From Deferrisomatales bacterium (lineage in GTDB: Bacteria > Desulfobacterota > Deferrisomatia > Deferrisomatales > Deferrisomataceae), in assembly GCA_024277875.1 (NCBI GenBank), contig JAJRUI010000072.1:1-64000 (forward strand): a stretch of DNA of 64,000 bases, read 5' to 3'. Positions 7,974 to 50,382 of this stretch are shown here, in pieces. How positions within the stretch are numbered: position 1 is the first letter of the stretch; every line of letters begins with the position of its first letter. The notes below the pieces were generated by a model. The model was not told the DNA's origin. It saw only the letters and a program-made list of their open reading frames with translations, and searched no databases. The position numbers were made by a program, and so were the translations under genes.

Positions 7974-12185
<4,212 letters not shown>

Positions 12186-18195: not shown

Positions 18196-20292
18196 ATGGA
18201 TCGAGGAGCCCGCATCCAGCCGATCCAACTGCTGACCCGCCACAGCGGCATCGTCGTTGCGGCGGGGGTGATGAGCATCGTCTTCCTGATGATCATCCCC
18301 CTGCCCAAGCTGGCCCTGGACCTGCTGCTGGCCGTGAACATCGGCCTGTCGGTCCTGATCTTCCTCCTCGCCCTGTACACCGAGCGCCCCCTGGACTTCT
18401 CGGTGTTTCCCAGCGTACTGCTGATCGTCACGCTGTACCGGCTCGCCCTGAACGTCAGTTCGACCCGGCTGATCCTTCTCCACGGGGACCAGGGGATCGA
18501 GGGGGCGGGAAAGATCATCGCGGCGTTCGGGTCGTTCGTGGTGGGCGGCAACTTCGTCGTGGGGATCGTGATCTTCCTGATCCTCGTGGTCATCAACTTC
18601 GTGGTGATCACCAAGGGCGCCACCCGGATCGCGGAGGTGAACGCGCGGTTCACCCTGGACTCGATGCCGGGCAAGCAGATGGCGATCGACGCGGACCTGA
18701 ACGCCGGCCTGATCGACGAGGTCGAGGCCCGGCGGCGCAGGGAAGAGATCGCCCAGGAGGCCGATTTCTACGGCGCCATGGACGGTGCCAGCAAGTTCGT
18801 CCGGGGCGACGCGATCGCAGGGCTCGTGATCACCGGGATCAACATCCTGGGCGGGCTGGTGATCGGCGTGCTCCAGATGGGGATCCCGTTGGCCGACGCG
18901 GTTCGCACCTACACCACCATGACCGTGGGGGACGGCCTGGTGAGCCAGATGCCGGCCCTGATCGTGTCCACCGCCTCGGGCATCCTGGTCACCCGGGCCG
19001 GCAGCCACTCGAACCTCGGCCAGGTGTTACCTGGCCAGCTCACCCAGTCCCCCGAGGCGTTGGGCGTGGGCGGGGGCGTGCTCCTGGTGCTGGGCCTCGT
19101 GCCCGGCCTGCCGCTGGTGCCGTTCGCGATCCTGGCCGGCGTCCTGGGGGGCACGGCCTACGCCCTGCGCCAGGTGCGCGAGGCCGAGGCCCGGAGGCGG
19201 GAAGAGGAGGTTCGCAAGGCGGCCGAAGAGGCGCCGGCGCCGGCAGAGGGCCCTGAAGAGGTCAGCCAGCTGCTCCACGTGGACGTGCTCGAGCTGGAGG
19301 TGGGGTACGGGCTGCTCCACCTGGTGGACGCGTCCCAGGGCGGCGACCTGCTCGAGAGGATCCGGTCGATCCGGCGCCAGCTCGCCCTGGAGCTGGGGAT
19401 CGTGGTGCCCCCGATCCGGATCCGGGACAATCTCCAGCTGCGGCCCACCGAGTACCTGATTCTGATCAAGGGGGTCGAGGCGGCCCGGGGGGAGCTGAAA
19501 GAGGGGTGCTACCTGGCCATGAACCCGGGGATCGCCGAAGGGGACCTGGACGGTGTGCCAACCCGGGAGCCCGCGTTCGGCCTGGACGCCCTGTGGATCC
19601 GGGAGGAGCTGCGGGAAGAGGCCCAGGTGAAGGGGTACACCGTGGTGGACCTGAGCACCGTGGTGGCCACCCACCTGACCGAGCTGATCAAACGCAACGC
19701 CCACGAGCTGCTCGGACGACAGGAGACCCAGAACCTGCTCGACACGCTGAAGGCGTCGGCGCCGGCCCTGGTGGAGGAACTCGTACCCAACCTGCTGCCC
19801 CTGGGTGCCGTGCAGAAGGTCCTCCAGAACCTGCTGCGCGAACGGGTGAGCGTGCGCGACCTTCGTACCATCCTGGAGACCCTGGCCGACTACGCCCCCA
19901 CCACCAAGGATCCCGACCTGCTCACCGAGTACGTGCGGGCCGGCCTGCGCCGGGCGATCTCCAAACAGTACCAGGACCCGGACGGCAAGCTCCCGGTGAT
20001 CGCCCTGGACCACGAGATGGAAGAACTCCTGTCGTCCGCGATCCAGCGCACAGAGCACGGGTCGTTCCTGGCCCTGGAGCCCCAGACGGCCGAGAAGGTG
20101 CTAGGCGCCCTGGCCCGGGCGGCCGAGGCGGTGAGCCTGCAGAACCAGACCCCGATCGCCCTGACCACCCCCGTAGTCCGCCTGCCGTTGCGCAAGCTGG
20201 CGGAGCGGGTGCTGCCCGGCCTGGTGGTGCTCAGCCACAACGAGGTGGAGGGGCCGATCCGGACCCTCCAGGTGGTGAGCCTTGCGGGTTAA
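18196..20292 (+). CDS. flhA: Flagellar export gate protein FlhA
   Basis: FlhA is the large inner-membrane component of the flagellar type III export gate; its cytoplasmic ring docks chaperone-substrate complexes. The 698-residue product has multiple N-terminal membrane helices to about residue 320. The FHIPEP-family signature falls near residues 150-180 (NARFTLDSMPGKQMAIDADL). The C-terminal cytoplasmic domain runs to VLSHNEVEGPIRTLQVVSL. Length is normal. Its TAA stop overlaps the TTG start of flhF, so the two are translationally coupled. Confidence 0.98.
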   Translation: MDRGARIQPIQLLTRHSGIVVAAGVMSIVFLMIIPLPKLALDLLLAVNIGLSVLIFLLALYTERPLDFSVFPSVLLIVTLYRLALNVSSTRLILLHGDQGIEGAGKIIAAFGSFVVGGNFVVGIVIFLILVVINFVVITKGATRIAEVNARFTLDSMPGKQMAIDADLNAGLIDEVEARRRREEIAQEADFYGAMDGASKFVRGDAIAGLVITGINILGGLVIGVLQMGIPLADAVRTYTTMTVGDGLVSQMPALIVSTASGILVTRAGSHSNLGQVLPGQLTQSPEALGVGGGVLLVLGLVPGLPLVPFAILAGVLGGTAYALRQVREAEARRREEEVRKAAEEAPAPAEGPEEVSQLLHVDVLELEVGYGLLHLVDASQGGDLLERIRSIRRQLALELGIVVPPIRIRDNLQLRPTEYLILIKGVEAARGELKEGCYLAMNPGIAEGDLDGVPTREPAFGLDALWIREELREEAQVKGYTVVDLSTVVATHLTELIKRNAHELLGRQETQNLLDTLKASAPALVEELVPNLLPLGAVQKVLQNLLRERVSVRDLRTILETLADYAPTTKDPDLLTEYVRAGLRRAISKQYQDPDGKLPVIALDHEMEELLSSAIQRTEHGSFLALEPQTAEKVLGALARAAEAVSLQNQTPIALTTPVVRLPLRKLAERVLPGLVVLSHNEVEGPIRTLQVVSLAG

Positions 20293-21508
20293 GAAGTACC
20301 AGGCCGTGGACATGCCCGACGCCCTCCGGCAGATCAAGGAGGACCTGGGGCCCGACGCCGTGATCCTGTCCACCCGGGAGGTGCGGCCGGGCAAGGGGGT
20401 GTTCGGCATGCTCGGCCGGCCGATCCTCGAGGTGACGGCCGCGGCCGACCTGGACACCAGCGTGGGCCAGCCGCCCCGGCCTGCCGCCGCCGGGCCGGCG
20501 CCCCGGACCGCGCCGCGCCAGGCCGGACCGGATCACGGGGTGCTGCTGGCGCTCCAGGCCGACATCGACAGCCTGCGGGAGTAGCTCGACCTGCTGGCCC
20601 GGCGGCCCGGCCCTGCCGCGGCCCCGGGGCCTGCGGCCGGAGAGGTGCGCGAGCTGGTGCGAAAGGTGGAGCGGCTGGTGGAACAGACGGCCCGCCTGGA
20701 CCGCGTCCACCTGTCCCCCGGCCTGCGGCAGCTCCAGGACCACCTGGAACGGATCGACGTGGACCCGGCCCTGGCCGCCCGGATCCTGTCGTTCCTCCAG
20801 GACCGGATGGACAAGGGCGGGGTGCCGCCGGGCCGGGAGGTGGACGCGTTCCGGGAACTCGTGGCCCGCACCGTGCGGGTGTCGGGGGATCTGGTGGCCG
20901 GGGACGGGCCCCGGCGGGTGGTGGCGTTCGTGGGACCGACCGGGGTGGGAAAGACCACCACGGTGGCCAAGCTGGCCGCGCGCTACGCCCTGCAGGACGG
21001 CCGGCGGGTGGGGCTCGTGACCGTGGACACGTTCCGGATCGCGGCGGTGGAACAGCTGAAGACCTACGCCCAGATCATGGGGGTGCCGCTCCGGGTGGCG
21101 GTGGACGCCGACGGGTTCCGGGCGGCGGTGGACGAACTGGCCGACCGGGAGCTGGTGCTGGTGGACACGGCGGGCCAGAGCCCCCGGGACGAGCAGAGCC
21201 TGGCAGAGCTGCTCGCCCTGTTCCCGGAAGGGGTTCACACCGAGGTTCACCTCGTCCTCGCCGTGACCACCCGGGGCCGGGACCTGGAGCGCATCCTGCG
21301 GCACTACGGGCTCCTCAAGCCGTCGCGCCTGCTGCTCACCAAGCTGGATGAAACCGAGTGCCACGGGCCGCTCCTGGGGCTTCCCCTGGCGTCCCGGCTG
21401 CCGGTGAGCTTCGTCACCACCGGCCAGAACGTGCCCGACGACATCGAGCAGGCCACCCCCGAGGGCGTTGCCGCGTACCTGGCACGGGGCCTGGAGCCCG
21501 AGCCGTGA
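20282..21508 (+). CDS. flhF: Flagellar biosynthesis GTPase FlhF, interrupted by an in-frame TAG
   Basis: FlhF is an SRP-type GTPase that fixes the position and number of polar flagella. The frame opens at TTG 20282 (MRVKKYQAVDMPDALRQIKE), has an amber codon at 20582-20584 (codon 101) and continues without other damage to TGA 21508, giving 408 codons in all. The N-terminal domain precedes the TAG. The GTPase domain after it has GPTGVGKTTT (about residues 219-228), DTFRIAA and DTAGQSPRD. Without readthrough, a GTG at 20645 could restart a 287-residue GTPase portion. The TAG could be a sequencing error, a nonsense mutation or recoding. Confidence 0.88.
20582..20584 (+). other. In-frame amber codon inside flhF
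   Basis: The frame reads CGG GAG TAG CTC GAC across this position. One base change would restore CAG (Gln) or GAG (Glu). Both sides are in the same frame and look like normal FlhF, so there is no frameshift. Confidence 0.9.
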
Positions 21509-47191: not shown

Positions 47192-48093
47192 CACAGGCTC
47201 TCCGGGCGAAAGCCCCCCCGGCCGTCCTGACCGACGACGAGTTCCACCGGCTGGGGGAGTTGCTGTACGACCGCAGCGGCCTCGTGTTCGGACCACCGAA
47301 GCGACGGTTGCTGGACAGCCGGGTCGCCCGCCGGATGGCCGCGGTCGGGGTGGACACCGGGGCCGCATACCTGGACATCCTCTTGTCCCCGCACCAGGGG
47401 CCCGGGGAGTTACTGGAGCTGCTGGACGCGGTCACGACCCACGAGACCTCGTTTTTCCGCAACCGGCCCCAGCTCAACGCGTTCCGGCAGTATGTGCTGG
47501 CGCCCCTGGTGGACCGGCAGCGGGCGTCGAGCCACCCCAGGCTGAGGATCTGGAGCGCCGGGTGTTCGTCCGGCGAAGAGCCCTACAGCCTGGCCATGCT
47601 GGTGTTGGAGGTCCTGGGAGACGACGCCCCCCGCTGGGACGTCAGGATTTTCGGAACCGACCTGGCGAGGAGCGTGATCGAGAAGGCGCGGCACGGAGAG
47701 TACGGCCGGTACAGCTTCCGGGGGACCCCGGCCTACTACGTCCAGAAGTACTTCGACGTGCAGGGGCCGGACCGGTTCCGGGTAACGGACGGGCCCCGGA
47801 GACTCGTCACGTTCGACCTGCTCAACTTCCAGGACGAGGTGGGGATGGCGCGGATGCAAGGGTTCCACGTGGTGTTCTGCCGCAACGCCCTGATCTACTT
47901 CGACCGGCCGGCCAAGAAGCGGTTCGTGGCCCACTTCTACCGTTCGCTGGTGCCGGGGGGGCACCTGTTCATCGGCCACTCGGAGTCGCTCCACGGTGTG
48001 AGCGACGCGTTCAAGCTGATCCACTTCCCCGGGGCCCTGGCCTACCAGAAGCCCCAGGCCCACGACGTGACGGAGCACACCCATGGAACCTGA
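47188..48093 (+). CDS. cheR: Chemoreceptor methyltransferase CheR (first copy)
   Basis: CheR methylates receptor glutamates with S-adenosylmethionine. The 301-residue product starts at a GTG overlapping the HDOD gene. It has the N-terminal helical domain, the TTHETSFFRNRPQL motif, the SAM-binding IWSAGCSSGEEPYSLAML, and VVFCRNALIYFD in the catalytic domain. It overlaps cheA by 11 bases. A second cheR lies at 51315. Confidence 0.94.
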   Translation: MTQALRAKAPPAVLTDDEFHRLGELLYDRSGLVFGPPKRRLLDSRVARRMAAVGVDTGAAYLDILLSPHQGPGELLELLDAVTTHETSFFRNRPQLNAFRQYVLAPLVDRQRASSHPRLRIWSAGCSSGEEPYSLAMLVLEVLGDDAPRWDVRIFGTDLARSVIEKARHGEYGRYSFRGTPAYYVQKYFDVQGPDRFRVTDGPRRLVTFDLLNFQDEVGMARMQGFHVVFCRNALIYFDRPAKKRFVAHFYRSLVPGGHLFIGHSESLHGVSDAFKLIHFPGALAYQKPQAHDVTEHTHGT

Positions 48094-50374
48094 CCGCGTA
48101 TCGCCGGAGATGCAGGAGCTGTTGCCCGACTACCTCGCCGACGCCCGGGAGTGCCTGGAGACCGTATCCCAGATCCTCCTGGCCAGGGACCGGGGCGAGG
48201 CCCGGGACGAGGACATCCCCGAACTGTTCCGCCAGATGCACATCATCAAGGGCGGGGCCGGTCTGATGGGGTTCGAAACGGTGGGCGCCACGGCCCACGC
48301 CGCCGAGGACGTGCTCGGCGCCGTCAAACGGGGCGAGCAGGAGCTGGATCCCCCGTTGGCCGCGGCCCTGCTCGAGATCCACGACGTGCTCCGTACCCTG
48401 CTGGACGAGCTGGAGCAAGACGGCCAGACCCGCACCGACCCGACCGAGGGGATCGCCCGGGTGCACGCGGCCCAGTCGGGTGGTGCCTCCGGGGCCCCGA
48501 CAGGAGGGGCGGCGGCGCCGGCCGGACAACCCGGTCCGGCTGCGGCGGAGGAACAGCCCGGGACGGCCGAGGCCGGGAGCGAAGACGCCGAGGTCCTCCA
48601 GGAGTTCTTCATCGAGTCGTGGGAGCTGATCGAGGAACTCGACCAGGACCTGGTGACCCTGGAGGAGACCCCGGACGACGCGGACCTGCTCAACAAGATC
48701 TTCCGGGCCGCGCACACCCTCAAGGGCTCCAGCTCTTTCCTCGGGTTCCAGGAGATCAGCCAGGTCACCCACCGGGTGGAGGACATCTTCAACAAGCTGC
48801 GCAAGGGGGAGATGTCCCCGAGCCCGGACGTGATGGACGTGGTCCTCGACGCGGTGGACCGGGTGCGCAAGCTTCTGGAGGCAGCCCAGTCGGGCACCCC
48901 CGGGCCGGCCGTGGACGACCTGCTGGCCGCGCTGGCCCAGGTCCTGGAAGGCGGCGGCCAGCGAAGGAAGCTGGGGGAGATCCTGGTCCAGGACGAGGGG
49001 GTGGACCCGACAGCGGTGGAACGGGCCCTGACCGAGAAAAAGCCCGACCAGCCCCTGGGCGAGGCGCTGGTGGAGCGCAGGGTCGTGGAGCCAGAGGCGG
49101 TCCACCGGAGCCTGGCCAAGCAGAAGGGCCCAGCCGAACCGGCGAAAAAGGCCCAGGCCGCCCACGTGGAACAGACGATCCGGGTGGACGTGGGCCGGTT
49201 GGACGACCTGATGAACCTGGTGGGCGAACTGGTGCTGGCCAAGAACCGGCTTGCCCGGGTCCGGGGAGAGATGGAAGAGCGGTGGGGGGGCGAGGAACTC
49301 GTGGAGGAACTGGGGGAGACTTCGGCCCAGGTGGACCTGGTGGCCTCGGATCTCCAGATGGCGGTGATGAAGACCCGGTTGATGCCGATCGGCAAGGTGT
49401 TCCGCAAATTCCCGAGGATGGTGCGAGACCTGTGCCGGTCCATGAACAAGGAGATCCGCCTCGAACTCCAGGGCGAGAACACCGAACTGGACAAGTCGGT
49501 GGTCGAGGTGATCGGCGATCCACTGGTGCACCTGATCCGGAACGCTGCGGACCACGGCGTGGAGTCCCCCGAAGACCGGGTCAAGGCGGGCAAGCCCCGG
49601 GAGGGCCGGGTCCGGCTGTCCGCGTGGCACGAGGGCAACCACATCGTGGTGAGCATCGAGGACGACGGCGCGGGCATGGACCCGGAGGTCCTCAAGGCCA
49701 AGGCCGTCGAAAAGGGCGTGCTGTCCCCGGCCGAGGCGTCCACCCTGAGCGCCCGGGACGCGTTCAACCTGATCTTCGCCCCCGGGTTCTCCACGGCCAA
49801 GAAAGTCACCAACGTCAGCGGGCGGGGCGTGGGCATGGATGTGGTGCGCACCAACATCCAGAAGCTCAACGGCCTGATCGACATCGACTCGGCACCCGGG
49901 GAAGGTACCACGGTCAAGGTTCGGATCCCGCTGACCCTGGCGATCATCCAGGCGTTGCTCGTCCGGTCCCGCCAGGAGGTCTACGCGGTGCCCCTGGTGA
50001 GCGTGGTGGAGACCGTCCGGATCCAGCCGGAGGAGGTGAAATCGGTGGACGGGTTCCCGGTGCTGCGCCTGCGCAACCAGGTGATCCCCCTGATCCGGAT
50101 GGACCAGCTGTTCCGGGTCCCGGAGGGGCCGGTGGACACCGAGCGGGAGTACGTGGTGATCCTGGGTCTGGCCTAGAAACGGGTGGGCCTGGTGGTGGAC
50201 GGCCTGGTGGGCGAAGAGGAGGTGGTGATCAAGAGCCTCGGACGGTATCTCACGGACACGCCGGCGATCGCCGGCGCCACGATCCGGGGCGACGGCCGGG
50301 TCACGCTGATCGTGGACGTCAACCAGGTGCTCGACCTGGCCGCCAAAGACCGAAACGGCAGACAGGCAGCCTAG
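48083..50374 (+). CDS. cheA: Chemotaxis histidine kinase CheA with two Hpt domains, interrupted by an in-frame TAG
   Basis: CheA phosphorylates CheY and CheB in response to receptors. The full frame has 763 codons. Two Hpt domains are present, with His53 (MHIIKGGAG) and His211 (AAHTLKGSSSFLGF). A repeat-like insert (about residues 295-350), the P3 dimerisation helix (LMNLVGELVLAKNRL), the P4 ATPase domain (LIRNAADHGVESPEDR, DDGAGMDPE) and the P5 CheW-like domain follow. Codon 698 (50174-50176) is TAG. The frame then continues KRVGLVVDGLVGEEEVVIKS to a TAG at 50374, which is normal P5 sequence. Termination at the first TAG would remove 65 residues of P5, needed for receptor coupling. Confidence 0.9.
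50174..50176 (+). other. In-frame amber codon inside cheA
   Basis: The frame reads CTG GCC TAG AAA CGG. A single change would give GAG (Glu), CAG (Gln) or AAG (Lys). The P5 domain is continuous on both sides in the same frame. Confidence 0.9.
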
Positions 50375-50382
50375 GCCCCGTG

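Follow-up and report, generated by a model that had tools for sequence, protein, structure and literature searches.

We looked at a 64-kb stretch of a draft genome, referred to here as the window, in which cheA is read from an ATG at position 48083. Its coding span (48083-50371) corresponds to a gene of 763 codons, and the Pfam matches together with the translation give the domain order of two Hpt domains, a segment of LGEILV repeats, a dimerisation domain (P3), an ATPase domain (P4) and a CheW-like domain (P5). An earlier note on this DNA had described a TAG inside the P5 domain, in frame with the start codon, followed by sequence that continues as coding. The translation bears out all three points: the TAG is codon 698, the Pfam match spans it, and 65 codons separate it from cheA's own stop. 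G+C at the three codon positions is 0.74/0.41/0.91 before the TAG and 0.74/0.41/0.88 after it, thus with no shift in coding statistics. CheA homologues without a stop were found in six relatives, with 68-76% identity over the matched stretch, and the alignment with solved CheA structures also runs through position 698. The earlier note had expected a charged or small residue there, and the nearest relatives have Glu: all six carry it, encoded by GAG in every codon that was read. A TAG that falls near the end of the alignment in the CheA of G054 is probably the normal stop and not an interruption.

The second amber in a motility gene reported by the earlier note was also recovered, in flhF, at a position where relatives have Glu. 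Besides these two, there were no further true-frame internal stops in the part of the window covered by syntenic stretches of three relatives, and no frameshifts were found in the true genes of the window. Another TAG ends the ORF at 7974-12185, taken for rpoC by its size and position; the coding signal ceases after this codon, so TAG terminates there.

Coordinates of the cheA and flhF features and of the TAG at the end of the putative rpoC
Feature	Position in the window	Strand	Basis
cheA	48083..50374	+	Translation, Pfam domains, relatives
In-frame TAG, cheA codon 698	50174..50176	+	Translation; Glu (GAG) in relatives from its family and order
CheW-like (P5) domain, residues 623-751	49949..50335	+	Pfam PF01584 match spanning X698
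Terminal stop of cheA, TAG (TGA further on at 50381)	50372..50374	+	Translation
flhF (SRP-type GTPase)	20282..21508	+	Pfam SRP54 GTPase; relatives
Second in-frame TAG, in flhF	20582..20584	+	Glu (GAG or GAA) in relatives
TAG ending a 1403-codon ORF (putative rpoC)	12183..12185	+	Codon statistics change after the TAG, no coding continuation

The survey of internal stops took in 1.41 Mb from this genome (the window plus other contigs, about half of the genome) and listed each stop that has a strong coding signal on both sides without a change of frame. Only interruptions whose homologues continue through the site were counted, after removal of gene junctions and of three apparent selenocysteine TGA codons. 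It gave 12 homology-supported internal stops, 11 TAG and 1 TAA, which affect unrelated genes and occur on either strand. The TAG codons interrupt flhF, cheA, leuA, smc, glmS, glnD and the genes for a U32 peptidase, a hybrid kinase/response regulator, a DegT aminotransferase, an acyl-CoA dehydrogenase and an S41 protease, while the single TAA lies in the gene of a DUF4340 protein. Each of these genes has one stop, and the best matches in relatives have none. Ten of the stops (9 TAG and the TAA) lie outside the window, on contigs L078, L196, L197, L199, L206, L213, L221, L226, L228 and L250. A 13th candidate (L258, position 15836) was left out of the count for lack of a homologue; others, among them L207 19028, L243 11330, L243 2119 and L217 17038, were dropped as gene junctions or shadow frames. 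Looser thresholds added no convincing interruptions. The same survey applied to 480 kb of a relative with a complete genome (G001) returned no TAG interruptions, its output consisting for the most part of junctions, where a start codon closely follows the stop, and of one or two ambiguous TGA or TAA codons.

The earlier note had hinted at a meaningful pattern in the two ambers in motility genes. This is not supported, considering that nonsense changes of the G>T type are about as frequent elsewhere in the genome, housekeeping genes included. The window has 2 stops against 10 in the remaining 1.35 Mb, a non-significant enrichment (Poisson about 0.08), and decay specific to motility was rejected given the similar rate of internal stops elsewhere.

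The three TGA codons set apart from the count (L217 14842, L246 17518 and L241 8984) lie in frame in two formate dehydrogenase-like genes and one HdrA-like gene, and they suggest that the organism uses selenocysteine. The cheA stop resembles such recoding in being an in-frame stop in an intact-looking gene, of which this genome has apparent cases; unlike them it is a TAG and not a TGA, and relatives have Glu at the site instead of Cys.

We compared the interrupted sites with their homologues. At cheA, flhF, U32 peptidase, leuA and glnD the residue of relatives is Glu, mostly encoded by GAG, and Glu is also found at the degT site in solved DegT homologues. The hybrid kinase site is mostly Glu, the acyl-CoA dehydrogenase site Asp or Glu, and the smc site mixed, while glmS contributes no homologous residue. 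In the S41 protease the TAG replaces an invariant Ser, consistent with TCG>TAG (a C>A change, equivalent to G>T in the complementary strand), and the TAA of the DUF4340 gene falls at a Lys/Ala site with an ambiguous ancestral codon. A single G>T or C>A change thus separates the homologous codon from a stop at the Glu sites and at the S41 Ser, with four sites ambiguous, and taken together most of the stops fit a G:C>T:A spectrum, mainly GAG>TAG. They are scattered regardless of gene function and strand in all 12 cases.

These observations lead us to regard the cheA TAG as probably a base error in the consensus, a G>T substitution at a Glu codon of a draft assembly (150 contigs, 92% complete). 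The first G of GAG would have been read as T in a consensus that is probably derived from a metagenome, as happens when guanine is oxidised while DNA is handled or sheared and the coverage is too low to outvote the wrong base. Oxidation of guanine driven by sonication is known to yield G-to-T artefacts (PMC6423013). We infer that coverage was low and that sequencing or DNA damage, not mutation, is the cause. As with artefacts of the 8-oxoguanine type, the changes are scattered G>T or C>A on either strand and strike essential genes; those artefacts differ in usually staying at a low level in reads, while here they would sit in the consensus, which requires low coverage. From the stops and the codons eligible to become stops, the error rate is estimated at about 3 x 10^-4 per G or C, so that the cheA TAG would be one among several hundred G>T errors (C>A on the other strand) across the assembly. 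In the organism itself CheA would most likely be normal and full-length, with Glu as residue 698.

The nature of the interrupted genes weighs in the same direction. Growing bacteria seldom do without smc and glmS. Several of the stops, those in smc and glmS above all, would cripple growth, and it is therefore difficult to believe that a living population carries them; since the G>T stops break unrelated and nearly indispensable genes, an assembly error is likelier than new biology.

The proportion of TAG fits less well. An unbiased G>T/C>A model with the codon usage of this genome predicts that 58% of nonsense changes are TAG, and the observed 11 of 12 lies somewhat above this (p about 0.014), which counts against errors without bias. 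If errors prefer a G that precedes A, an assumed context effect, the expectation rises to 84% and p to about 0.39. We also looked for missense changes of the same type in 23,693 paired codons from 480 kb of a relative, where only about 7 errors are expected: G>T numbered 40 and its reverse 35, C>A 86 and its reverse 76. Both excesses are small and non-significant, and a version restricted to the window is likewise low-powered.

An unlikely alternative is that the stops are real recent mutations, either pseudogenes or alleles of minor strains, perhaps in a lineage prone to G:C>T:A change through poor repair of 8-oxoguanine. The lesions in cheA and flhF would then mean that chemotaxis and motility are lost. 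Loss of MutM/Fpg raises G:C>T:A mutation, and no match to this enzyme was found in the organism's own genome, although its absence from an assembly only 92% complete is a weak sign and MutY is present and intact. Two of the stops do sit in motility genes, which bacteria can dispense with; however, smc, glmS, leuA and glnD are interrupted as well, and the non-significant enrichment of stops in the window speaks against this explanation. The cheA gene resembles a nonsense pseudogene in having a single stop in an otherwise intact frame. It differs in that the same change recurs in numerous genes that are unrelated and probably essential, and in that the true genes of the window show none of the frameshifts usual in decaying genes.

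We asked whether TAG might instead be decoded. TAG is the terminator of 193 of 964 strong ORFs (20%), cheA included, which makes it a working stop in this genome; relatives are similar, with a share of 28% in G001 and 16% in G003 plus G007. RF1 is present and intact, so neither avoidance of TAG as terminator nor loss of RF1 was found. No tRNA with a CUA anticodon appears among the 30 tRNA matches listed, and a genome-wide scan for a CUA tRNA pattern gave a sole match, within a tRNA-Leu(CAG) gene and away from its anticodon; the pattern presumes a standard T loop, which an atypical tRNA-Pyl could escape.

Amber readthrough, in which an unassembled or unusual suppressor tRNA would place Glu at a subset of TAG codons, is very unlikely on these data; it would make GAG and TAG interchangeable in part and yield CheA and FlhF in full length. 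What barely keeps it alive is that TAG is overrepresented, at 11 of the 12 internal stops (p about 0.01 if errors are unbiased). In addition, relatives have Glu at the best-determined sites, that of the S41 protease excepted, and the survey, while able to detect TGA as the three apparent selenocysteine codons show, returned no internal TGA outside those in 1.41 Mb. The 8% of the genome that is missing could still hide a tRNA. The two tRNA searches, the intact RF1 and the use of TAG as a terminator all speak against readthrough, and internal TAG codons are estimated at less than 0.1% of Glu codons. Moreover, they are neither confined to Glu positions nor the only internal stop, considering the invariant Ser of the S41 protease and the TAA of the DUF4340 gene. 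A code in which TAG means Glu is disfavoured on the same grounds: the Ser and TAA cases, the terminal use of TAG and the intact RF1. An incomplete reassignment, with UAG as the usual stop and a suppressor tRNA encoded in the unassembled 8% inserting Glu at scattered UAG codons derived from GAG, appears highly improbable. Genuine reading of the amber as Glu would amount to a type of code change without any bacterial example that we are aware of.

Insertion of pyrrolysine at the cheA TAG can be considered effectively excluded, with a negligible probability. Some marine Deltaproteobacteria do decode in-frame UAG as pyrrolysine (PMC8318568). The closest relative with a name among the public genomes is called a "Deltaproteobacterium", and an in-frame UAG followed by continued coding sequence is what such recoding looks like. 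Against this, the only match to PylS in this 92% complete genome is below the cutoff (22 bits versus 178), the same kind of match also turns up for 13 of the 14 control genomes, and no CUA tRNA came out of the genome-wide pattern scan. The homologous residue is Glu, and neither cheA, which is not a methylamine methyltransferase, nor the other interrupted genes are related to methylamine use.

Returning to the base error, the earlier note was accurate in its observation and most likely wrong in the biological reading of the cheA TAG; a sense codon in the raw reads, which it had named as the outcome that would speak against its claim, is most likely the result to be expected. If this is so, the public draft probably holds hundreds of G>T errors, and any pseudogenes, loss of motility or recoded stops called from it would be untrustworthy without the reads.

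As a separate observation on CheA, the segment with LGEILV repeats (residues 290-349, at about 48950-49129 in the window) has no significant Pfam match and resembles the c-di-GMP-binding domain of PilF in a comparison with solved structures (E about 5e-6, whole chain). Comparable segments were found in the CheA of several other lineages. Judging from this resemblance, a c-di-GMP input to chemotaxis through the LGEILV-repeat segment of CheA is possible.
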